Shown here: positions 42,912-53,398 of the stretch, piece by piece
How positions within the stretch are numbered: position 1 is the stretch's first letter
Layout: every line of letters begins with the position of its first letter
Virus record (IMG/VR): IMGVR_UViG_3300024999_000030
Span: 62,001 to 126,000 of that record
Strand: one strand, 5' to 3'
DNA length: 64,000 bases
Origin: a virus
Program-made: the position numbers and the translations under genes
The notes under the pieces: generated by a model
Databases searched by the model: none
Seen by the model: the letters and a program-made list of their open reading frames with translations, nothing else
Told to the model about the DNA's origin: nothing

Positions 42912-43987
42912 CGGGCGTTAAATTTGTTGGTAATCCTGAGGATCACACGGGCTATGGACGCGCTTGTCTTAATACTATATTAGCTCTATTAAAGACTAAG
43001 ATTCCTATAACACTTTGCAATATTCGTTTTATACATAACACCAAACAGCCATTACCACCTGAAATCAAGGCACGAATTGATGTTAAGATTCCATATGACA
43101 CTGTTATAGTTCAATGTACTCCTAGTTCATCTGTTCAATTTTTTGAGCCCGGCAAGAAAAACATTATTTATTTTTTTTGGGAAACCGATTGTATTCCAAG
43201 CGTGTGGGTAGATGCCTGTAATAGTGCACAGGAAATTTGGGTGGCGTGTCAAAGTAATAAAGATGCGTGCATAAAAAGTGGAGTTACTACTCCAATACGT
43301 ATTGTGCCACAAGCAATGTCCCTACATACACATTCGCAACGTTTATATTTACCAGGAGTAACACCTAATACATATGTCTTTTATAACATTTTTCAGTGGA
43401 CCCCTAGAAAAAACCCAAGAGCTATGCTACATGCATATTGGAAAGCTTTTACAGCAATGGATGATGTGTTGTTAGTTGTTAAAACATATGGTTCATCAGA
43501 TAACAATCAAGATGTAGAACGAATTAAATCGGAAATTAAAAACTATAAAGCTGAATTACAACTATCCTCCTTTCCTAGATTATGGTTTATTCATAAAATT
43601 ATTAGTGATTTTACCATAGAGAGCCTTCATAATACTGCACACTGTTTTGTGTCTAGCTCTAAGGGTGAGGGATGGAATATGTCTCTCGCTACCTCGGCTA
43701 TGCTAAATAAACCAATTATTTCTTCTACCTATGGGGGACTGGTAGACTTTATGTCTCCAGAAGATTATTACTCTGTGGATAGTAGTAAGTGGGAATCAGT
43801 TTCTGGTATGAGTTGGATTCAATGGTACGAGAAAACTCAAAAATGGACAGATCCAAATATTGAGGATTTAAGTCTCAAAATGAGACAGGTTTTTGATGAA
43901 AACGTAAGACATGTTGAATATGAAATTGCAAAAAACATTACACTAGAGGCCGTAGGGGCTCAAATGCGAGAGCTATTATGGAAATAA
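42908..43987 (+). CDS. GT4-like glycosyltransferase (atypical active site)
   Basis: This 359-residue GT-B protein opens with VGNPEDHTGYGRACLN, the glycine-rich N-terminal loop of GT4 enzymes. FQWTPRKNPRAMLHAYWKAF near 160-180 matches the (R/K)KNP helix start. The donor motif near residue 254 reads EGWNMSLAT: the first Glu (254) is present but the second position is Thr262 rather than Glu, a departure from EX7E. It may use another residue or a different donor. It overlaps both neighbours and belongs to the same modification operon. The family call is good; activity is less certain. Confidence 0.75.
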   Translation: MTGVKFVGNPEDHTGYGRACLNTILALLKTKIPITLCNIRFIHNTKQPLPPEIKARIDVKIPYDTVIVQCTPSSSVQFFEPGKKNIIYFFWETDCIPSVWVDACNSAQEIWVACQSNKDACIKSGVTTPIRIVPQAMSLHTHSQRLYLPGVTPNTYVFYNIFQWTPRKNPRAMLHAYWKAFTAMDDVLLVVKTYGSSDNNQDVERIKSEIKNYKAELQLSSFPRLWFIHKIISDFTIESLHNTAHCFVSSSKGEGWNMSLATSAMLNKPIISSTYGGLVDFMSPEDYYSVDSSKWESVSGMSWIQWYEKTQKWTDPNIEDLSLKMRQVFDENVRHVEYEIAKNITLEAVGAQMRELLWK

Positions 43988-44571
43988 CAACTTGTATTTT
44001 AGCTAAAAATGCCGCTAATTATATTGATTTGCCGATAAAATCAGCTAAACTTTTTTCATCTGAAGTAATAGTGGCCATAGATTCATTAAGTGATGATGAT
44101 ACTACCGCTAAGGTAGCCGCCTCCGACGTAATTTATTATTCATATGATTTTATTCATTTTGGAGACGCTAGAGATAAACTTATTGATTCTGCACATGGAA
44201 ATTGGATTTTTATGCTTGACGCCGATGAAGACTTGACCGCACAAGATTGCAGTAATATGAAAAAAGCAGCCGGGTGTTGTCCCGAGTGTGATTCGTTTTT
44301 ATTTCCAAGATATCAATGGTTAGATTGGGAAAGAACTAAATATGACCAACCTTATCCAGATTATCAATTGAGATTGTTTAAGCGGCTTCCACATATTAAA
44401 TATGGAAATCAACCAGTACATGAAGCACCTAAGGGTGTAAATAGAACTTCAGTAATACCATTTAATATTCATTTAAATCATTATAATAGAGTGTTTAGGC
44501 AGTGGATAGATTGGCATAACACTGCCATGTTTTATAATATCTTATCTGAAAAATATAAGGATGAAAAATGA
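43978..44571 (+). CDS. GT2-type glycosyltransferase, copy A
   Basis: This is a 197-residue single-domain GT-A protein, similar to the WaaE/KdtX group. It has an early ILAKNAANYID strand, an acidic VIVAIDSLSDDDT segment for the nucleotide, FGDARDKLIDSAHGNWIFML, and the metal-binding LDADED motif near 78-84. It is clearly related to the later GT2 gene at 46586: both share PYPDYQLRL, a GN..H..P.G.N segment and H(L/I)NHYN. The C-terminus is short. The start lies ten bases inside the previous gene. It would add one sugar to an acceptor that cannot be told from sequence. Confidence 0.8.
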   Translation: MEITTCILAKNAANYIDLPIKSAKLFSSEVIVAIDSLSDDDTTAKVAASDVIYYSYDFIHFGDARDKLIDSAHGNWIFMLDADEDLTAQDCSNMKKAAGCCPECDSFLFPRYQWLDWERTKYDQPYPDYQLRLFKRLPHIKYGNQPVHEAPKGVNRTSVIPFNIHLNHYNRVFRQWIDWHNTAMFYNILSEKYKDEK

Positions 44572-45302
44572 TAACTAGTATAGTGAATTCACGTATGTTT
44601 CGGGAAGAATATAATCAATGGATTGATGAGTTTCAAACTATTATAGCTCCAACACCAGAAGAGCAATATAAATTGCAACATTTGAGGTATAGTGATTTTT
44701 TCTTTATACATCAAGCCATGAAGCCGACTGTTACAGATAAAATTTTAGAGCTTGGTGCGTGGCCCACATATGGGTTTCTCTATTTCGCTCAATTTGCCGC
44801 AGAAACAGTTATATCTGATAATTTACAATGGGATTCTGAGAGAGATTTAGCTGGTGTAGATAAATCTCCATCCCCATGGTTGAAAAATTGCGCTTCTTTC
44901 CCTAAAACCGTTGCTGAAAAAATAGACGCATGTAATATTCCATATGACAATTATTTTAATTTTATTTATTCTGTGTCTGTTATAGAACATGTTGTTGATG
45001 ATAATTTAGCTTTGAGGCAAATGTACAAGGCTTTAGCTCCTGGTGGAACAATGATATTAACCACTGAGGTTAATTTGTTTACATCAATGCCTTACCAGCC
45101 AGATGTATATTTTAGAGTATATAAGTTTAGTGAAATTATAGAGCAAATAAGGGCTGCAGGATTTATTGTTTCTAATAATATTGAAGGGGTGGACGCTGAA
45201 GTGGAAGCCATGATGTCCGGTGCCATTAATCATGAGACGGAGCTGAGGCAGCCATATAAACATTTCATGTCAGGCGGTGTAGTATGTCGCAAACCACTAT
45301 AG
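44568..45302 (+). CDS. SAM-dependent methyltransferase (class I), island member 1
   Basis: This is a 244-residue protein. ILELGAWPTYGFL (near 60) is the SAM-binding motif I position, though less glycine-rich than usual; FIYSVSVIEHVVDD (near 130) is motif II; LAPGGTMILTTE (near 155) is the post-motif strand. This is the Methyltransf_11/23 pattern that acts on small molecules or sugars. The stop is TAG. It overlaps both neighbours (ATGA upstream, 19 bases downstream). Methylation of a glycan made by the adjacent glycosyltransferases is the simplest reading; the true substrate is unknown. Confidence 0.75.
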   Translation: MITSIVNSRMFREEYNQWIDEFQTIIAPTPEEQYKLQHLRYSDFFFIHQAMKPTVTDKILELGAWPTYGFLYFAQFAAETVISDNLQWDSERDLAGVDKSPSPWLKNCASFPKTVAEKIDACNIPYDNYFNFIYSVSVIEHVVDDNLALRQMYKALAPGGTMILTTEVNLFTSMPYQPDVYFRVYKFSEIIEQIRAAGFIVSNNIEGVDAEVEAMMSGAINHETELRQPYKHFMSGGVVCRKPL

Positions 45303-45958
45303 ATTATCATTTAAGCGCATTACCAGATTTAATGGAATATCTTGGAGAGACATATGTTCATAGGAATGGACAGGTGGAATTAAGAGATAAATGGTTATCT
45401 TGGCAAGGGGGAGTTTCAGAGTACTATAAAGACTGCGTGAATGATTCATATTTGTTTGATCTATCTCAATGGCACGCCTCTGGTACATTGACTGGTTGGG
45501 GTAATATAATTAAAGATCACGCTCATGGGGTGACATTGGATTTCGGTGGTGGTATAGGTACTTATTCTTTAATTATGGCCTCTTCTGATAAAACCAGTGA
45601 AGTTTGGTTTTATGATATTAATGAGGCTAATGAAAAATTTACCAAATATCGTATAGATAAACATAGTTTAGCTCATAAAGTGAAATATGGAATGCCCACA
45701 ACTCAAGTAGATACAATTGTGGCCATTGACGTTTTAGAGCATATGCCGGATAGAGTTTTAGCTGTTAAAGAGTGGGTTGATAAATTAAATCCTGGTGGTG
45801 TATTAATCTTAACTCACACCACCACAACGAGTGGCGGACAACATCCTATGCATCTTATGACTGATATCGAAATTCCAGTTGTAGCAGCCGCCCTTTCTGT
45901 GTCCTGCACCAAATTAGGCACTTTTTGGCCGCAGGTATGGGTGAAAAATGCACACTAA
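45284..45958 (+). CDS. SAM-dependent methyltransferase (class I), island member 2
   Basis: This is a 224-residue protein with a clean class I signature: TLDFGGGIGTYSLIM (motif I, near 85), VWFYDINEAN (motif II acidic end), VAIDVLEHMPDR (near 147) and LNPGGVLILTHT (near 170). The start codon is inside the previous gene, and the last 11 bases overlap the next gene. Sequence differs enough from its neighbours that the three adjacent methyltransferases are not recent tandem copies. Substrate unknown; the operon suggests sugars or a lipid/protein acceptor. Confidence 0.8.
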   Translation: MSQTTIDYHLSALPDLMEYLGETYVHRNGQVELRDKWLSWQGGVSEYYKDCVNDSYLFDLSQWHASGTLTGWGNIIKDHAHGVTLDFGGGIGTYSLIMASSDKTSEVWFYDINEANEKFTKYRIDKHSLAHKVKYGMPTTQVDTIVAIDVLEHMPDRVLAVKEWVDKLNPGGVLILTHTTTTSGGQHPMHLMTDIEIPVVAAALSVSCTKLGTFWPQVWVKNAH

Positions 45959-46574
45959 CAACATACATACTGAAAAAGCATATATGGAAAGAGCACATGG
46001 GCCAGTTAGTCCAGTTTATTATACTGATGGTAGACCCATTACAGTCGGTTATAAATTATTAGATGAGTTATCTATACAGGGTGCCTTGGTTATAGATGTT
46101 GGCGCTTTTGCGGGATTTATAGGTAATTATTGTTTGCAGCGCGGAGCCCGAGTTACATTAATTGATATATTTAAGGGGGCGTTTCCCTCTTTTATGTTTA
46201 GCGTTCAGGGATCCAAAGAACAAATGCCATTTAGAGATAATTTTTTTGATTTTGCTGTATGTGGTGACACATTACATCATGGAGATTTAGATTCAACTCT
46301 ATTGGAAATTTATAGAATTCTTCGTCCAGGTGGCCAATTTATTTCTGTACGGGAGCCCTGTATAGCTTCCTCAGAAGACGAATGGACAGTATTACAAAAG
46401 GACTGCGGTTTAGTTGTTGCAGAGGGTATTTGTGAACGTAGGCCGAATCTAATTCAATATAAACGCGCTCTTACAGTGTTTCCTAAATTTAGTGTTTATA
46501 GTGGTGTGGACTTAACTCCAGCTAAAGATTTAAATTATGGAGATAAGGGCATTGTTATAAAGGCAATAAAATAG
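45948..46574 (+). CDS. SAM-dependent methyltransferase (class I), island member 3
   Basis: This is a 208-residue protein. VIDVGAFAGFIGNYCLQRG (near 48-66) is motif I, VTLIDIFKG the acidic strand, FFDFAVCGDTLHHGDLD (near 100) motif II and ILRPGGQFISVRE (near 128) the last strand. CGDTLHH is characteristic of Methyltransf_11 proteins. It overlaps the previous gene by 11 bases. The following gene starts 11 bases on, with a weak ribosome site (GGACGGCGA). Function within glycan or small-molecule modification is inferred. Confidence 0.8.
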   Translation: MHTNNIHTEKAYMERAHGPVSPVYYTDGRPITVGYKLLDELSIQGALVIDVGAFAGFIGNYCLQRGARVTLIDIFKGAFPSFMFSVQGSKEQMPFRDNFFDFAVCGDTLHHGDLDSTLLEIYRILRPGGQFISVREPCIASSEDEWTVLQKDCGLVVAEGICERRPNLIQYKRALTVFPKFSVYSGVDLTPAKDLNYGDKGIVIKAIK

Positions 46575-46585
46575 GACGGCGAAAA

Positions 46586-47275
46586 ATGAAACTTTCATTA
46601 TGTATGATGACATTAGATGGCGCTGATCGCATTGAAAAATGTTTACTTAATTTTGTTGGAATGGTCGATCAGATTGTTATATGTGTAGATGATAAAACAG
46701 TAGACAGCACAAGAGAGGTAGCGGCTAAAATTACCAATGAGGTATATGATTTTACTTTTGTACATTGGGGACAGGCAAAAGATAATATGTTACAATATCT
46801 CACTGGAGACTGGATACTTCTTATGGACGATGATGAAGATATGTCGATTGAAGATATTGGAATGCTCAAAACTGTAATAGAAACGGCTCCACTAGATGTG
46901 GATCTCTATGTAGTTCCCAGAAGACATTGGTTGGACTTGTCATGTACCAAATTAGATGAAACAAGGCCATACCCAGATTATCAATTAAGACTACATAGAA
47001 ATGTAGATTATATTAAGTGTGGAAATAAATTTGCCCATGCGTCCCCATCTGGGTACAATAAAAGCGAAATTATTCCATATGATATTCACATTAATCATTA
47101 TAATAAGGTGTATCACGACAGAGATTGGCATTTACGTCGTTATCAAATGTATGATGAATTGTTTCATAAATATGAGGGTATATCGTATTTGGAATTTATT
47201 AAAGAACACGTCAATCCGTTAGTACAAAAAATAGAAGAATGTCTTCCGACATTTAAACCAGAGGACAAAGAATGA
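46586..47275 (+). CDS. GT2-type glycosyltransferase, copy B
   Basis: This is a 229-residue GT-A protein and a paralogue of the 43978 gene. It has CMMTLDGADRIEKCL, VICVDDKTVDSTREVA for the nucleotide, and LMDDDEDMS (near 80-88) as the metal-binding motif in place of LDADED. It shares PYPDYQLRL, CGN, HxxPSGYN and HINHYN with copy A. It overlaps the next gene by ATGA. Two such enzymes in one island suggest two successive sugar additions or two acceptors. Confidence 0.8.
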   Translation: MKLSLCMMTLDGADRIEKCLLNFVGMVDQIVICVDDKTVDSTREVAAKITNEVYDFTFVHWGQAKDNMLQYLTGDWILLMDDDEDMSIEDIGMLKTVIETAPLDVDLYVVPRRHWLDLSCTKLDETRPYPDYQLRLHRNVDYIKCGNKFAHASPSGYNKSEIIPYDIHINHYNKVYHDRDWHLRRYQMYDELFHKYEGISYLEFIKEHVNPLVQKIEECLPTFKPEDKE

Positions 47276-47868
47276 TATATAATGCTGATTTTTATTTAAA
47301 TAGAAATAAAATTACACGACCATCAGCTCTTGTGGTTTGTCCAATAGTTTTTGCTTTACTAGATGCCCCACAAACTGTGTGTGATTTTGGGTGTGGAGTA
47401 GGCACTTGGTTAAAAGTGTTTTCTGAGCTTGGAACGCAAGATGTTTTGGGATTAGAGGGAGATTGGCTAGATACTCAATATGTAGTGATTCCATTTGAAT
47501 CGTTGAAAATTACAGACTTATCTTCTACGGTGCAATTAAACAAAATATATGATTTAGCTGTATCTTTAGAGGTGGCTGAGCATATTGATGAAAAATATGC
47601 TGATGTGTTTGTGGATAATATAGCCCAAGCTTCAGATACTATATTGTTTTCTGCGGCAATTCCGGGTCAAGGTGGTGTCAATCATGTTAATGAGCAACCC
47701 CACCAATACTGGATAGATAAATTCGAAAACAGAGGATATGTTACTTTCGATTGCATTAGGTGGAGAATTGCCAATAATCCAAAAGTGTTTCCGTGGTATC
47801 AAAATAATATTTATATTTTTTCACGCAATCCTCGACATTCTATTAAACTCACGACCCTAAGTTCATAA
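47272..47868 (+). CDS. SAM-dependent methyltransferase (class I), island member 4
   Basis: This is a 198-residue protein. VCDFGCGVGTWLKVF (near 36-50) is motif I, VLGLEGDWLD the acidic strand, AVSLEVAEHIDEKYAD (near 95) motif II. PHQYWIDKFENRGY near 145 is a helix seen in FkbM-like and sugar-associated methyltransferases. The N-terminus is short. It ends the tightly overlapped island operon; a 48-base gap with a likely promoter follows. Confidence 0.8.
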   Translation: MIYNADFYLNRNKITRPSALVVCPIVFALLDAPQTVCDFGCGVGTWLKVFSELGTQDVLGLEGDWLDTQYVVIPFESLKITDLSSTVQLNKIYDLAVSLEVAEHIDEKYADVFVDNIAQASDTILFSAAIPGQGGVNHVNEQPHQYWIDKFENRGYVTFDCIRWRIANNPKVFPWYQNNIYIFSRNPRHSIKLTTLSS

Positions 47869-47869
47869 C

Positions 47870-47898
47870 TTGCAATTTATCTCGATAGGTATTATATT
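47870..47898 (+). promoter_or_regulatory. Sigma70-type promoter with dyad over the -10 box
   Basis: TTGCAA (47870-47875), a 17-base spacer and TATATT (47893-47898) lie in the gap before the radical SAM gene. An inverted repeat AGGTA/TACCT (47887-47891 and 47901-47905) is centred on the -10 box and could be an operator. The same -10 box and spacer length recur at three other sites. Inferred from sequence. Confidence 0.6.
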
Positions 47899-47916
47899 AT
47901 TACCTTGGAGGTTAAT

Positions 47917-48726
47917 ATGGTTCCACAGTTAATTCAAATAGAATCCTCCACAGCATGTAGTGCTGCATGTGATTTTTGCCCACATAGTTCACTTCAGAGA
48001 AAAATGGGTTCTATGACGGATGCTTTGTTTTTAAAAATTATTAACGATGCTAATAATATGGGAATAAAGCACATTCTTCTTTTTCTTAATGGTGAGCCTT
48101 TGATTTTTAATCGTTTTTTTTACTGGCTTGAAGAATTGCGTCAGCGGAATATGGTGACTACTATCTTTACTAATGCTTCACATTTAACTGAAGATAAAGC
48201 TCATCGTTTAATTTCTTACGCTGATGTAATTAGAGATATTTTTTTCAGCGTTGCTGGTATAAATAAGGAAACCTGTTTTAATCTTACTGGTTTAGATTTT
48301 GATACGGTGGTTTCTAATGTTAAATATTTTGTGAATCTGAATAATGGTTTAATCCCAATTGCCGCTCATATGCCACTATATAGCAAAACAGTAGCCTTTT
48401 CGAAGCAATGGAAATTATTTTGGTCAGATGTGGTTGGTAGGGCCGATTTAACCGATTATTATAATTTTGCTGGATTAGTCACGCCAGAGAAAAGTCAAAG
48501 AAAAAAAGCGTTTTGTGGTCGCCTTACTCATTTAACAGTGTTATATGATGGTAGGGTGTGTCTGTGCTGTATGGACCCAGAGGGACAAGTAATTTTAGGA
48601 GATCTAAACACTCAGTCTATCACGGAAGTTTATAATGGTGAAATAATGGAAAAATATCGTATGGCCCATCACCGTGGAGACTTTTCTTACCCGTTGTGTT
48701 GTAACTGCAATATGAATGAAGTATAA
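47917..48726 (+). CDS. Radical SAM protein with SPASM-like C-terminal cysteines
   Basis: This is a 269-residue protein. The ATG at 47917 is preferred over a TTG 12 bases upstream because GGAGG lies seven bases before it. Cys14, Cys18 and Cys21 form the CxxxCxxC [4Fe-4S] site that cleaves SAM. The following GEPL motif (LLFLNGEPLIF near 55) is a radical SAM hallmark. The C-terminus has a second Cys group (CGRLTHLT, VCLCCMDPEG, CCNCN) like SPASM/Twitch auxiliary cluster domains, which often modify peptides or sugars. It has its own promoter. The substrate is unknown; a sugar dehydration or epimerisation step fits the island. Confidence 0.8.
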   Translation: MVPQLIQIESSTACSAACDFCPHSSLQRKMGSMTDALFLKIINDANNMGIKHILLFLNGEPLIFNRFFYWLEELRQRNMVTTIFTNASHLTEDKAHRLISYADVIRDIFFSVAGINKETCFNLTGLDFDTVVSNVKYFVNLNNGLIPIAAHMPLYSKTVAFSKQWKLFWSDVVGRADLTDYYNFAGLVTPEKSQRKKAFCGRLTHLTVLYDGRVCLCCMDPEGQVILGDLNTQSITEVYNGEIMEKYRMAHHRGDFSYPLCCNCNMNEV

Positions 48727-48763: not shown

Positions 48764-49738
48764 ATGAAAAAGGCATTAGTTACTGGTATTTATGGACAAG
48801 ATGGTGGTTTTTTAGCAAAACAGCTACTTCAAGAGAACTATGAAGTGTGGGGTGTAAAGCGCCGCTCAGCCTCATCTATTCCATGGCGGCTGGAAGCACT
48901 TGGTATCTTATCTCACCCAAATCTCCATATTATTGAGGGAGATGTAACAGATCCAATTTCCATGTTAGACTGTGTAAAACGCTCTCAACCAGATGAAGTT
49001 TATAATACGGCAGCCATGAGTCATGTGGGAACCTCATTTAAACAGCCTCTTGCCACTGCCCAAATTGATGGGTTGGGAGTTCTAAATATATTAGAGGCTA
49101 TTCGTACATTAGCTCCTGAAGCTAGATTTGTACAGTGTTCCACCTCGGAGCTTTATGGTAATTTACCCCCGGAGCAACAATCTCTAGGCGTATATCATCC
49201 ACGTAGTCCATATGGGGTGGCAAAGCTTTTTGGTTTTTGGACTACAGTTAATTATCGTGAAACATATAATATTTTTGCTTGCAATTCCATTTGCTATAAT
49301 CACGAATCAGCTTTACGCGGCGAAGACTTTGTTACTAGAAAAATTACACTTGGCTTAGCTGATATTGTAGCTGGTAAAAGCAAGGTGATTAAGTTGGGAA
49401 ATATTGATGCTCGTCGAGATTGGCAACATGCTAAAGATGCGTGTCGAGCAATGATTATGATGGCCCGCGCGGATGTAGCGGATGATTTTGTTGTTGCTAC
49501 TGGAGAATCTCATTCTGTACGAGAGTTTATTCAATTGGCGGTGAAGAAAGCTGGCTTAGGAGATGATTGTGAACGTTTTATTGAAATCGATCCACAGTTT
49601 TATCGTCCTGCTGAGGTCCCAGATTTGAAAGGGAATCCAGATAAAATTATGAAAACTTTGGGATGGAAACCTATTACATCTTACGAACAGTTAGTCGAGG
49701 AAATGGTTAATTATGATGTCTTTGGGAAGAAGCCTTGA
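48764..49738 (+). CDS. gmd: GDP-mannose 4,6-dehydratase
   Basis: This 324-residue protein belongs to the extended short-chain dehydrogenase family. TGIYGQDGGFLAKQLL (residues 8-23) is the TGxxGQDG NAD(P) loop typical of Gmd. KRRSAS near 32, YNTAAMSHVGTSF near 82, CSTSELYG near 125 and the catalytic YxxxK (YGVAK near 150) follow, then NHESALRGEDFVTRKI near 180 (family form NHESPRRGE). It converts GDP-mannose to GDP-4-dehydro-6-deoxymannose, the precursor of fucose, rhamnose and perosamine-type sugars. It probably feeds the glycosyltransferases upstream. AGAGGAAAGG precedes the start. No GDP-fucose synthase gene was seen in the window. Confidence 0.9.
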   Translation: MKKALVTGIYGQDGGFLAKQLLQENYEVWGVKRRSASSIPWRLEALGILSHPNLHIIEGDVTDPISMLDCVKRSQPDEVYNTAAMSHVGTSFKQPLATAQIDGLGVLNILEAIRTLAPEARFVQCSTSELYGNLPPEQQSLGVYHPRSPYGVAKLFGFWTTVNYRETYNIFACNSICYNHESALRGEDFVTRKITLGLADIVAGKSKVIKLGNIDARRDWQHAKDACRAMIMMARADVADDFVVATGESHSVREFIQLAVKKAGLGDDCERFIEIDPQFYRPAEVPDLKGNPDKIMKTLGWKPITSYEQLVEEMVNYDVFGKKP

Positions 49739-49763
49739 CTTTTTCTAACTTTAAAATTATATT
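49735..49763 (+). promoter_or_regulatory. Sigma70-type promoter before the tubulin-like gene
   Basis: TTGACT (49735-49740), a 17-base spacer and TATATT (49758-49763) precede the tubulin-like gene. The -35 box overlaps the end of gmd. The elements are identical to those before the helicase gene at 54402. The likely start of transcription is about 30 bases before the ATG. Confidence 0.7.
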
Positions 49764-49799
49764 CCTCATGTAGAGAGAATCATATGCAAGGAGAAAATT

Positions 49800-51104
49800 A
49801 TGAGTGATAACGAATTTAAGATAGAGGCTACTGGAAATAGTGGCATTCATATCGAGAGTACTGGCGGAGTTAAAATTGAAGCAAAAGCTGGAACTCCGGT
49901 AGAGGTGAGAGGAGTAAAAGTGGGAATGACAGGTGAGCTTGCGATTCGTTTCGGTGTCATCGGTGCCGGGCAGGGAGGCTCTAGAATAGCCGAGGTGTTT
50001 GGTGCGCTGGGTTACCCATCTTGTGCCATTAACACGGCCAAACAAGATCTAAAATATATTAAACTGCCTGAAGACCGTAAACTTTGTATGGAATATGGTC
50101 TTGGCGGCGCAGGACGAGACATTCAATTAGGTGCCGAAGCCTTTACTGCTCATCGAGAATCTGTGCAGGCCCTTATTGATCGCACTTTTTCTGATGATGT
50201 GGACTATGCATTAGTGTGTGTTGGTGGTGGTGGTGGTACGGGATCAGGTGTAGCCGAACAACTTATTACGTTGTTACATTCTTATAATATGCCGGTTGGT
50301 ATGATTTACACTTTACCTCAATCTAATGAAGACGCTTTAACCCACGCTAATGCCGTTAAAGTGTTGGATAAGCTCAGTAAATTGGTTAAGGAAAAAATAC
50401 TCACTACTCTTATCGTGGTAGATAACGCTAAGATTGAAGCCATTTATCCTTCTTTATCTACTGTGGCTTTTTGGCAGAAAGCAAATGGTGACTTAGTTAA
50501 TATTCTCCATCAATTCAATCGTCTTACTGCACAGCCATCTCGTTTTGTATCTCTTGATCCCATGGACTTTGCTAAAATTATAACTGAGGGAGGGTGTACT
50601 GTATATGGAGCAGCTAGACTCTCAGAATATAAAGATGCAGAAAGCCTTGCGCAGACGGTAATTAACAGTGTTAAATCCGGCCTATTAGCCTCTGAATTTA
50701 CTCTATCTGAAGCCACAATGGGTGGATTAATTGTTACTGGTTCATTTGATATGCTTTCAACTGTTCCACAGGAAGATATCAATTATGCTTTATATAATCT
50801 TACTTCTATAGTTGGCCATGCTGGTCTTTATAGAGGAATTTATGATTTAGATTCTACGGATGCTGGACATGGCCTTGTGGTTTATACTATGTTGAGTGGT
50901 CTTGGTGTGCCCCATCGTAGAGTTGAAGCCCTTATCCAACGTGGCGAAGAGGGCGCTCAAGCCCTTGAGATTAAAAAGAATGATCATGCTAAAATGAACG
51001 TTATTGATTCTGATTCTTCCAGCGCCGATAATGACCGTCTTAAAAACATGCAAGCTAAACATGGTCCATTGGGTAAACTTTTGGGAAATAGAAAGAAGCC
51101 TTAA
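49800..51104 (+). CDS. Tubulin/FtsZ-family GTPase (PhuZ/TubZ-like)
   Basis: This is a 434-residue protein. Residues 1-50 are an extra N-terminal segment rich in beta strands with two repeats of the IHIESTGG/VKIEAKAG type. The GTPase follows: GAGQGGS loop (55-61), the tubulin signature GGGGGTGSG (142-150), VVDNAK (207-211) and a T7-like loop KANGDLVN (227-234). In FtsZ the T7 loop carries NxDxxD; here N229 and D231 fit and the last acid is Asn234. The C-terminal ~40 residues are charged and end in KKP. Phage tubulins centre DNA and capsids in the cell; that role is inferred. A strong promoter and AAGGAG ribosome site precede it. It could alternatively be an FtsZ homologue that disturbs host division. 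Confidence 0.8.
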   Translation: MSDNEFKIEATGNSGIHIESTGGVKIEAKAGTPVEVRGVKVGMTGELAIRFGVIGAGQGGSRIAEVFGALGYPSCAINTAKQDLKYIKLPEDRKLCMEYGLGGAGRDIQLGAEAFTAHRESVQALIDRTFSDDVDYALVCVGGGGGTGSGVAEQLITLLHSYNMPVGMIYTLPQSNEDALTHANAVKVLDKLSKLVKEKILTTLIVVDNAKIEAIYPSLSTVAFWQKANGDLVNILHQFNRLTAQPSRFVSLDPMDFAKIITEGGCTVYGAARLSEYKDAESLAQTVINSVKSGLLASEFTLSEATMGGLIVTGSFDMLSTVPQEDINYALYNLTSIVGHAGLYRGIYDLDSTDAGHGLVVYTMLSGLGVPHRRVEALIQRGEEGAQALEIKKNDHAKMNVIDSDSSSADNDRLKNMQAKHGPLGKLLGNRKKP

Positions 51105-51298: not shown

Positions 51299-51322
51299 GG
51301 CGCCCGCAAGGGCGCCTTTTTT
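51299..51322 (+). terminator. Intrinsic terminator after the tubulin-like operon
   Basis: A perfect 7-base stem GGCGCCC / GGGCGCC with a GCAA loop is followed by six T. It ends the tubulin-like and small membrane protein transcript. Confidence 0.9.
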
Positions 51323-51334
51323 GTTTCTTTTAGT

Positions 51335-51343
51335 CTATTAATG
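51335..51343 (+). promoter_or_regulatory. CTATTAATG motif, candidate phage-specific promoter
   Basis: The motif starts 12 bases after the terminator T-run and ends 30 bases before the chosen start of the HNH frame. A promoter is expected between a terminator and the next gene. The last base differs from the other copies (G instead of A). Confidence 0.4.
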
Positions 51344-51373
51344 ATAATTGTTATATGGATTGAGGAAAATATA

Positions 51374-51858
51374 ATGACAAAAATAATTTTTCTTTTTGGA
51401 AAAGAGGCTAAAAAATGTACTAAATGTCAACAAGATAAGTTATTATCAGAATTTCCAAAAAACAAAAGGGAAAAGAATAAAATATTATTAAGAAAGAAAG
51501 CACAAATACGCAGAAAAGCTAGAGCCCTACAAGACCCAGAATATAGATTGCTTCTTTGCTGTAGGAGCCGAATTAGCGATGCTATTAGAAGAAATAGGGG
51601 TTTTAGTGGAAAAAATCAAACCACTAAACAGCTAATAGGATGTTCATTATTACAACTTAGGCAACATATTGAAAGTAAGTGGCAACCGGGAATGACTTGG
51701 GAAAATTATGGTATCCGAGGGTGGCACATAGATCATATTAAACCATGTGCTTCGTTTATTCTAACGGACGAAAAACAATTACAACAATGTTTTTTCATTA
51801 TACAAATCTTCAGCCCTTGTGGTGGAGAGATAATTTAACGAAAGGAGCGAAAACATGA
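51374..51858 (+). pseudogene. HNH endonuclease with frameshift at a slippery T-run
   Basis: The start at 51374 is chosen because a GAGGAAAA site precedes it. Residues near 15-18 (CTKC) are half of a zinc finger; the second Cys pair usual for this group is absent. Near residues 122-128 is WHIDHIKP, the His-Asp-His part of HNH homing-type endonucleases. At 51790-51795 a run of six T breaks the frame: the zero frame runs to 51838 and loses the last motif. The -1 frame reads CFFHYTNLQPLWWRDN, the normal family ending, and stops at 51858, overlapping the next ATG. The run forms the canonical slippery heptamer T TTT TTC. A decayed gene and programmed frameshifting are both possible. Confidence 0.75.
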
Positions 51859-52496
51859 AATTTAATACTGATTATTCCGCAACAACCACGGATTATTATC
51901 TGGTGGAAACAGTAAAACAAGGCATAACACTTCATTATACTGCTGGCAGCACTGCTTCTGGAGCCATTAGCACGTTATGTCAACAAGATATGGTATGTGT
52001 GCCTTTTGTGGTGGATAAAGATGGCACTGTCTATCAACTTTTTAATCCAAAATATTATGCTTTTCATTTGGGGATCCGTGGAGCAGCAGAAGGTTATAAA
52101 AAAGGACATTTTGATAAAAAATTTCTAAGTGTGGAAATCGTCAATGAGGGACCATTAAAAAAAGTTGGTTCAGATTATTTATGGTGGCCTAAAAATTGGG
52201 GAGCTAAATATACAGGAAAAGTAGTTAATTATTCTTTTCGTGGTTTTGATTATCATGCGGCATTTCCAGAGGTTCAAATCCAGGCTGTTTGTGAATTAAT
52301 AAAACATCTTTGTACTGAGTTTAATATTTCTAAAAGTTTAGTGCCAAAAGATAAACGTGAATTATTAGATTTAGATTATATGGATACCTTTGAGGGGATA
52401 TGTTCGCATGTTAATTTCAGGTGGGACAAATGGGACATTCCAGGTGAACCAGTCTTTCCGTGGGATAGGCTACAAAAGTATTTAGAAGACAAATGA
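51855..52496 (+). CDS. N-acetylmuramoyl-L-alanine amidase (amidase_2 type), likely endolysin
   Basis: This is a 213-residue protein. GITLHYTAG (His27) is the first zinc ligand of the T7-lysozyme/PGRP fold. A central VCVPFVVDKDGTVYQLF strand pair (near 45-65) follows, and CSHVNFRWDKWDIPG (His185, Asp191 or Asp194) supplies the remaining ligands. It cleaves the bond between muramic acid and the stem peptide. No signal peptide is present, so release would need a holin. GAAAGGAGCG precedes the ATG. A lysis-type gene group follows. Confidence 0.85.
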   Translation: MKFNTDYSATTTDYYLVETVKQGITLHYTAGSTASGAISTLCQQDMVCVPFVVDKDGTVYQLFNPKYYAFHLGIRGAAEGYKKGHFDKKFLSVEIVNEGPLKKVGSDYLWWPKNWGAKYTGKVVNYSFRGFDYHAAFPEVQIQAVCELIKHLCTEFNISKSLVPKDKRELLDLDYMDTFEGICSHVNFRWDKWDIPGEPVFPWDRLQKYLEDK

Positions 52497-53398
52497 TTGA
52501 AATTACAGATCAGATAACCGGCATATATGAAAAAATTACAATAATCAATGAATTGCATTGGTCGCATAAACTTATGCATATTAATGAAGCTTGGGCTAGG
52601 GCAACAGGTAAAGGCGTTAAAATAGGTATAGTAGATACTGGTTGCGACATTCATCATCCAGATTTAAATGGCGCTATTGTTGGATGTCATAACTTTTCTC
52701 AATCATCGGGGCAATGCGAAGATATGCATGGGCATGGCACACACATAGCGGGTATTATAGCGGCTAAAATTACTGGCTCCGGTGTTTCGGGCGTAGCTCA
52801 TGGAGCTAGTTTATATATCGCAAGAGCTATAGATAATTCTGGAGTAGGAAATCCAGCAAACATAGCTAGGGCTATTGAAGCTTGTATAGATGCTGGATGT
52901 GATGTTATTAATTTATCTCTTGGGTGTCCAGAAGAATACATTCCAATGTCTCGGGCTATTCAACGAGCTACTGAAAAAAATATTATTGTTGTAGCTGCAG
53001 CAGGCAATTGTGGAGATAATAACGTTTCAACGGTAGAAGAACAGTGGCCAGCTAGATTACCATTTGTTATTTCTGTAGCTGCTATTAATAAAAAACTAAT
53101 TAACGCTTCATGGTCAGCTTCTGGTGATATTGAGTTTTCTGCTCCAGGAGTTGATATTTTATCTTGTTATCCAGGTGGTAGGTATGCTACTATGAGTGGC
53201 ACGAGTCAGGCCTGCCCGTTTATAACTGGGGCGTGTGCTCTAATGAAAGAAATAAAACGCGATATAAATAGAGAGCAAATTGTTAAATTGCTGTCGCAGT
53301 ATTCTATGTCTATAGGACATCAAGCCAGCTTTGGGGCCGGGGTGGTTAACGTTGTTGCTGCTTTAGAGTCCCTAGAGGGTATGTTGAAGCGAGGTTAA
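52493..53398 (+). CDS. Subtilisin-like serine protease (S8), no signal peptide
   Basis: This is a 301-residue protein. All catalytic elements are present: Asp48 (IGIVDTGCD), His81 (HGHGTHIAG), oxyanion Asn172 (AAAGNCGD) and Ser238 (SGTSQACPF). There is no secretion signal and no long propeptide (only ~40 residues precede the catalytic core), so it would act in the cytoplasm or in the virion. It overlaps the amidase by ATGA, which links it to a lysis or host-takeover group. It could mature virion proteins, inactivate host proteins or degrade antiphage proteins; these roles are inferences. It is fully intact. Confidence 0.85.
   Translation: MIEITDQITGIYEKITIINELHWSHKLMHINEAWARATGKGVKIGIVDTGCDIHHPDLNGAIVGCHNFSQSSGQCEDMHGHGTHIAGIIAAKITGSGVSGVAHGASLYIARAIDNSGVGNPANIARAIEACIDAGCDVINLSLGCPEEYIPMSRAIQRATEKNIIVVAAAGNCGDNNVSTVEEQWPARLPFVISVAAINKKLINASWSASGDIEFSAPGVDILSCYPGGRYATMSGTSQACPFITGACALMKEIKRDINREQIVKLLSQYSMSIGHQASFGAGVVNVVAALESLEGMLKRG

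Follow-up and report, generated by a model that had tools for sequence, protein, structure and literature searches.

Work on phage tubulins has centered on PhuZ, in nucleus-forming phages, and on TubZ, in plasmid-like partition, and GTP-driven filament assembly is established for both of these proteins as well as for FtsZ. The tubulin family described here is widespread in jumbo phages resembling Bacillus phage G, a group in which little is known of how DNA and particles are arranged within the cell. Which type of tubulin does such a phage encode, and what might the N-terminal extension of this protein contribute to the filament? We addressed these questions for a single gene in a window of 64,000 nucleotides, taken from a virus record of 332,730 bases, and for its relatives in other viral contigs. 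The analysis leads us to favor a TubZ-like, polymer-forming GTPase with two in-frame starts, the long and short products of which would probably co-assemble. The gene and its nucleotide-binding and catalytic loops are located as follows:

49800 to 51104, plus strand: TubZ-like tubulin GTPase, long isoform, 434 residues (open reading frame, Pfam, PDB match, AlphaFold2, Foldseek)
49962 to 49982, plus strand: T1 nucleotide loop GAGQGGS, residues 55-61
50223 to 50249, plus strand: T4 signature loop GGGGGTGSG, residues 142-150
50553 to 50567, plus strand: T7 catalytic loop LDPMD, residues 252-256 (profile alignment with FtsZ)

The protein belongs to the tubulin/FtsZ superfamily, as the initial annotation had read from the GAGQGGS and GGGGGTGSG motifs, and the GTPase fold and the T1, T4, and T7 loops are all present. 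Pfam matches to Tubulin (7e-13) and TubZ-like_C (3e-6) both lie above the cut-off, TubZ chains are the best PDB sequence match (E 2e-21), and an AlphaFold2 model computed with an alignment of 53 family members folds as a tubulin, its pLDDT exceeding 90 over most of residues 50-380. When set against PhuZ, TubZ, and FtsZ, the protein comes closest to TubZ in its sequence, its fold, and the family of its C-terminal domain. TubZ also tops the Foldseek comparison with the PDB (TM 0.67-0.80), followed by CetZ and FtsZ; identity and TM score are ~25% and ~0.75 for TubZ versus ~13% and ~0.5-0.6 for PhuZ, and identity to FtsZ in a profile alignment is only ~24%. The PhuZ C-terminal family (PF22334 / phrog_4733) was not matched, nor was the FtsZ C-terminal domain family, in place of which TubZ-like_C was recovered. 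A T7-like loop ending in Asn234 had been proposed, but this residue is part of helix H7; VDFAD of FtsZ aligns on LDPMD, with D253 and D256 at the positions of the FtsZ acids and D253 invariant among the 53 aligned family members. Given a tubulin fold with complete loops, the protein would be expected to form filaments by GTP-driven assembly.

The T1 loop is also the site of an intein-like insert in the tubulins of two relatives, on contigs of ~354 and ~361 kb (L060:4399-7170 and L073:4333-7137). The insert falls between the positions of G60 and S61, separating GSGQAG (or GTGQAG) from SR(L/I)AE, and in L060 it matches the Pfam families Intein_splicing (1.8e-11) and LAGLIDADG endonuclease.

One scan of IMG/VR yielded 113 stretches encoding family members and two more scans contributed ~20 contigs; 74 proteins were left once near-duplicates had been removed. 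The family comprises ~100 tubulins of jumbo phages, and nearly every one has an N-terminal tail. With Bacillus phage G, the window phage shares 54% identity in the major head protein and 37% in the portal, which marks it as a phage-G-related jumbo phage. Each of 14 large contigs, including the record of the window, encodes exactly one tubulin, and the protein is among the most similar of those common to the window phage and a distant member (G003); the tubulin is a core gene of this lineage. In a quick tree from one method, the phage family forms a group that excludes phage G, TubZ, FtsZ, CetZ, and PhuZ, its base being modestly supported, phage G gp138 clusters with a Bacillaceae plasmid homologue, and the long reference branches meet, leaving the order of TubZ, phage G, and the family unfixed. 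A scan of plasmids returned TubZ/RepX-like proteins at ~25-30% identity, and a scan of GTDB genomes at least one match, an archaeal FtsZ-like protein. Two features were noted elsewhere in the window phage: its portal (L098:562-3378; record 326562-329378) contains extra sequence at about residues 383-457, which matches a PHROG named thymidylate synthase and is possibly an intein or homing insertion, and a 3988-residue open frame occurs in the same phage (L097:6597-18563; record 312597-324563).

The N-terminal tail precedes the GTPase domain and has its own ribosome-binding site:

49788 to 49793, plus strand: Shine-Dalgarno sequence AAGGAG of the long isoform, identical in the relative L003
49800 to 49919, plus strand: N-terminal tail, codons 1-40, mostly predicted disordered, with in-frame indels only relative to L003

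The start codon, the AAGGAG, and the reading frame of the extension are all kept in L003, whose tubulin is 84% identical. By computation, its own Shine-Dalgarno sequence and dN/dS values of 0.05-0.27 in close pairs show that the tail is translated and under purifying selection. A search for the extension in other phages found a tail in nearly all family members, ~26-71 residues long in most. Its sequence differs strongly between branches, with a VVDDVS-like motif followed by a Lys/Ala-rich stretch in the main branch, RVVVTD...IKSDAEIVKENE in another branch, and an Ile/Glu/Gly-rich stretch in that of the window. The initial description of the extension as beta-rich is not borne out: the extension is genuine, its start conserved and its indels all in frame, yet disorder is what the model predicts. 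Residues 1-31 have pLDDT below 50, the sole predicted strand element is a short hairpin at residues 34-41, and the tail is mostly disordered in both family members modeled with AlphaFold2. A beta-prism or baseplate-needle-like extension, conceivable from the strand-like repeats, was rejected given this predicted disorder, and no comparable repeat was found in other proteins of the window phage. A shared targeting tag was likewise rejected: in the two phage genomes searched, the N- and C-terminal motifs are confined to the tubulin, except that small ORFs gave two weak pattern matches at their C-termini.

Across the family, the extension has the look of an optional tail, its presence depending on which of two translation starts is used. 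Most members have an internal start codon 17 residues ahead of the GxGQ loop, with AGGAG or a near match in front of it. Among 68 distinct N-termini, 60 show an in-frame start with a Shine-Dalgarno sequence ahead of the GTP loop, and the distance is exactly 17 residues in 53 of these; in two of these phages, long genes with such an in-frame ATG are rare (2-5%). Codon choice preserves the site: in the 32 members having the Gln-Glu dipeptide, the AGGAG is formed by CAG for Gln in 27 (versus 24% elsewhere in the same genes, p 5e-12) and by GAG for Glu in 29 (versus 23%, p 4e-15), and pairing with the anti-Shine-Dalgarno sequence averages -6.4 kcal/mol versus -3.5 kcal/mol in synonymous shuffles (Wilcoxon p 3e-11), p-values that are too small because related sequences were treated as independent. 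Among the conserved Q/E/K/R columns of the de-duplicated alignment, these Gln and Glu columns are the two most G-ending. No excess pairing is seen at 616 control Met codons elsewhere (-1.3 versus -1.4), and the internal sites are about as strong as the primary ones (-6.7 versus -7.0). Close relatives that depart from the internal ATG carry GTG or TTG in its place (L028, L045, and L075). The residue that follows is, with one exception among 56, A, P, S, or T, and these are the usual second residues at real N-termini; where it is Ala, GCA is enriched relative to elsewhere (p 6e-5, again too small given the relatedness of the sequences). About a quarter of members do not have a strong internal site, with ~12 changes of the trait on the tree, and in one clade (L074, L077, L081, and L265) the tail persists while no strong internal site is present. 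The internal Shine-Dalgarno sequence and start codon are kept beyond protein constraint across the family, and the computational evidence argues strongly that the start is used, so that one gene would yield long and short isoforms.

The corresponding elements of the window allele are:

49908 to 49914, plus strand: internal Shine-Dalgarno sequence AGAGGAG, anti-Shine-Dalgarno pairing -8.6 kcal/mol
49920 to 51104, plus strand: predicted short isoform from GTG 49920, with ATG 49926 as alternative start (homology with the family's internal starts)

Here the site reads AGAGGAG-TAAAA-GTG (49908-49922), with an ATG two codons further on, and this string is conserved in L003, in which overall identity at degenerate codons is only 46%. 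The duplex of -8.6 kcal/mol compares with -5.9 kcal/mol expected from synonymous shuffling (p 0.09), and 5% of long genes in the window phage have an equally strong site at some start codon. With these two values, the prediction of a short isoform in the window rests mainly on the family, and we regard the internal start in this allele as moderately supported.

Could a single product suffice? It is conceivable, if rather unlikely, that only the long form works and that the internal AGGAG-ATG is a relic of an ancestral tail-less start, a translational pause, or a regulatory element. Phage G gp138 does start at about the internal position, and several family members are without a strong internal site, two points in favor of this reading. 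A relic would decay, however, and this site is kept by codon choice among members whose identity often falls well below 80%. Moreover, the replacement of ATG by GTG or TTG and the nearly fixed Shine-Dalgarno spacing speak for a functional start.

In conjunction with the presence of one tubulin gene per phage, two starts would give a filament in which only some subunits are tailed, and we propose the following model. Initiation at the first ribosome-binding site would produce the long form with its mostly disordered tail, and initiation at the second, immediately ahead of the GTPase domain's first strand, would produce a short form beginning at about the start of the tail-less homologues from phage G and some plasmids. 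The two forms may co-assemble such that a fraction of subunits carries a tail, with the translation ratio of the two starts setting tail density along the filament. GTP-driven filaments of this kind could then position phage DNA or particles inside the infected cell, or move them apart. Whether a phage lineage with no recognizable nucleus shell makes a tailed/tail-less filament from one gene, with initiation setting the number of docking tails, we consider an evenly balanced proposition. If true, the two isoforms would be a one-gene substitute for paralogous tubulins, and the conserved dual start a simple route to a mixed filament. We found no description of a dual-start phage tubulin in the full text of the open-licence papers searched.

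A role as a PhuZ-type spindle protein that centers a phage nucleus, close to what the initial annotation had in mind, appears very improbable. The tubulin does occur in a jumbo phage, and there is some structural likeness to PhuZ models. It nevertheless matches TubZ-like_C and not the PhuZ C-terminal family, and TubZ is closer in fold and sequence. A search for a phage-nucleus shell gene found no chimallin in the window phage or in 14 large relatives, records that are possibly incomplete, and the same set contained no phiKZ-type non-virion RNA polymerase; phiKZ served as a positive control and was matched in the same search. PhuZ is associated with phages that encode chimallin, a correlation only, and one that was not recovered in this phage.

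The C-terminus bears on both PhuZ and FtsZ:

51060 to 51101, plus strand: basic peptide HGPLGKLLGNRKKP at the C-terminus, corresponding to SxFGKL...DRRK of the family

In the main branch the conserved basic end takes the form SxFGKL...DRRK; the window protein has GPLGKLLGNRKKP. PMC3678025 describes the C-terminus of PhuZ as an acidic knuckle, which is not present in the window protein or its family, and, citing work on TubR, assigns the C-terminal tail of TubZ a part in cofactor recruitment. By analogy with TubZ and TubR, the basic peptide might provide a second docking site for a partner. That the protein mixes with host FtsZ and so disturbs division of the host could be imagined from the FtsZ-like core and complete catalytic loop, but identity to FtsZ of ~24% and a conserved C-terminal peptide of its own make this scarcely credible. 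Further upstream, at 50970-51011 (tubulin codons 391-404), nine consecutive degenerate codons are identical to L003, against a mean of ~4; this may reflect chance or an overlapping element.

Regulatory elements and a small ORF flank the tubulin gene:

49735 to 49763, plus strand: sigma-70-type promoter TTGACT-17-TATATT, hexamers and spacer length conserved in L003 and L004
51114 to 51278, plus strand: Trp-rich 54-residue ORF with a good Shine-Dalgarno sequence, private to the window phage
51299 to 51316, plus strand: intrinsic terminator, seven GC pairs followed by a T-run

The strong terminator noted initially was found again, and the claim of a dedicated promoter is partly upheld: the hexamers and spacer length are unchanged in L003 and L004 while much of the flanking DNA differs, but consensus matches are as frequent in shuffled sequence (7 versus 6.9). 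The least probable explanation, a filament paired with the 54-residue protein as dedicated membrane anchor, draws on the ORF's position close downstream, its own Shine-Dalgarno sequence, its hydrophobic stretch, and a terminator in common with the tubulin, and is not supported, because the ORF is found only in the window phage: it matches nothing in the viral collection except a contig of this phage, it is not among the conserved neighbors of the tubulin in relatives, and in L003 a terminator-like hairpin and a lysozyme-like gene directly follow the tubulin. We do not judge it part of the tubulin system.

In most relatives, the tubulin locus has an epimerase-type gene upstream and a UvsW-like helicase gene downstream. 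No TubR-like gene was seen adjoining the tubulin (a more distant one may exist), nor were iterons or a conserved small neighbor; consequently, a TubZ partition role is not directly supported. Several nearby genes merit mention. Directly behind the tubulin unit, and not so in L003, lies an HNH-endonuclease-like ORF (51341-51838) that resembles mobile-looking genes in ~10 relative loci. An amidase-like endolysin gene (51855-52496) has a lysozyme-like counterpart in L003 (L003:7392-7895), with later genes in the same order, and the subtilisin-like protease gene beside it (52493-53398; PHROG 3677, 6e-74) is conserved in L003. Upstream, at 43978-48726, a run of glycosyltransferase- and methyltransferase-like genes with a radical-SAM-like gene is absent in such form from L003.

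How does this system compare with known ones? Two polypeptides from one gene are described for phage endolysins, in which an internal in-frame start gives a short product beside the full-length one and the two can hetero-assemble in a fixed ratio (PMC9430671); those are lysis enzymes with both products shown experimentally, whereas the window tubulin is a predicted filament protein with predicted isoforms. PhuZ (phiKZ gp39, 201phi2-1 gp59) is likewise a phage tubulin with a cytomotive filament, as presumed here, but differs in sequence (~13% identity), C-terminal family (PF22334), and its acidic knuckle, the window protein being basic-ended and its phage having no chimallin found. The closest predicted viral structure is A0A6J5RW92, an FtsZ-like protein of an uncultured Caudovirales phage with 35% identity and the length of the family's main branch. 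The nearest annotated phage homologue is the putative FtsZ-like gp138 of Bacillus phage G (27% identity), and judged by its head and portal proteins this phage is also the closest relative in culture; unlike the window family, gp138 has no tail and starts at about the internal position. The best match in sequence and fold remains TubZ of the TubZ-TubR-tubS systems that partition plasmids (structures 2xka, 3m8k, and 4ei7), with which the window protein has in common the PF22453 C-terminal family, the DPxD T7 loop, and a C-terminal tail outside the fold. The gene is TubZ-like by predicted fold and sequence and is not a PhuZ, and unlike TubZ it has no adjoining TubR-like gene or iterons; what distinguishes its family is a long, apparently optional N-terminal tail with an internal start, a C-terminal motif of its own, and a place in a jumbo phage lineage.
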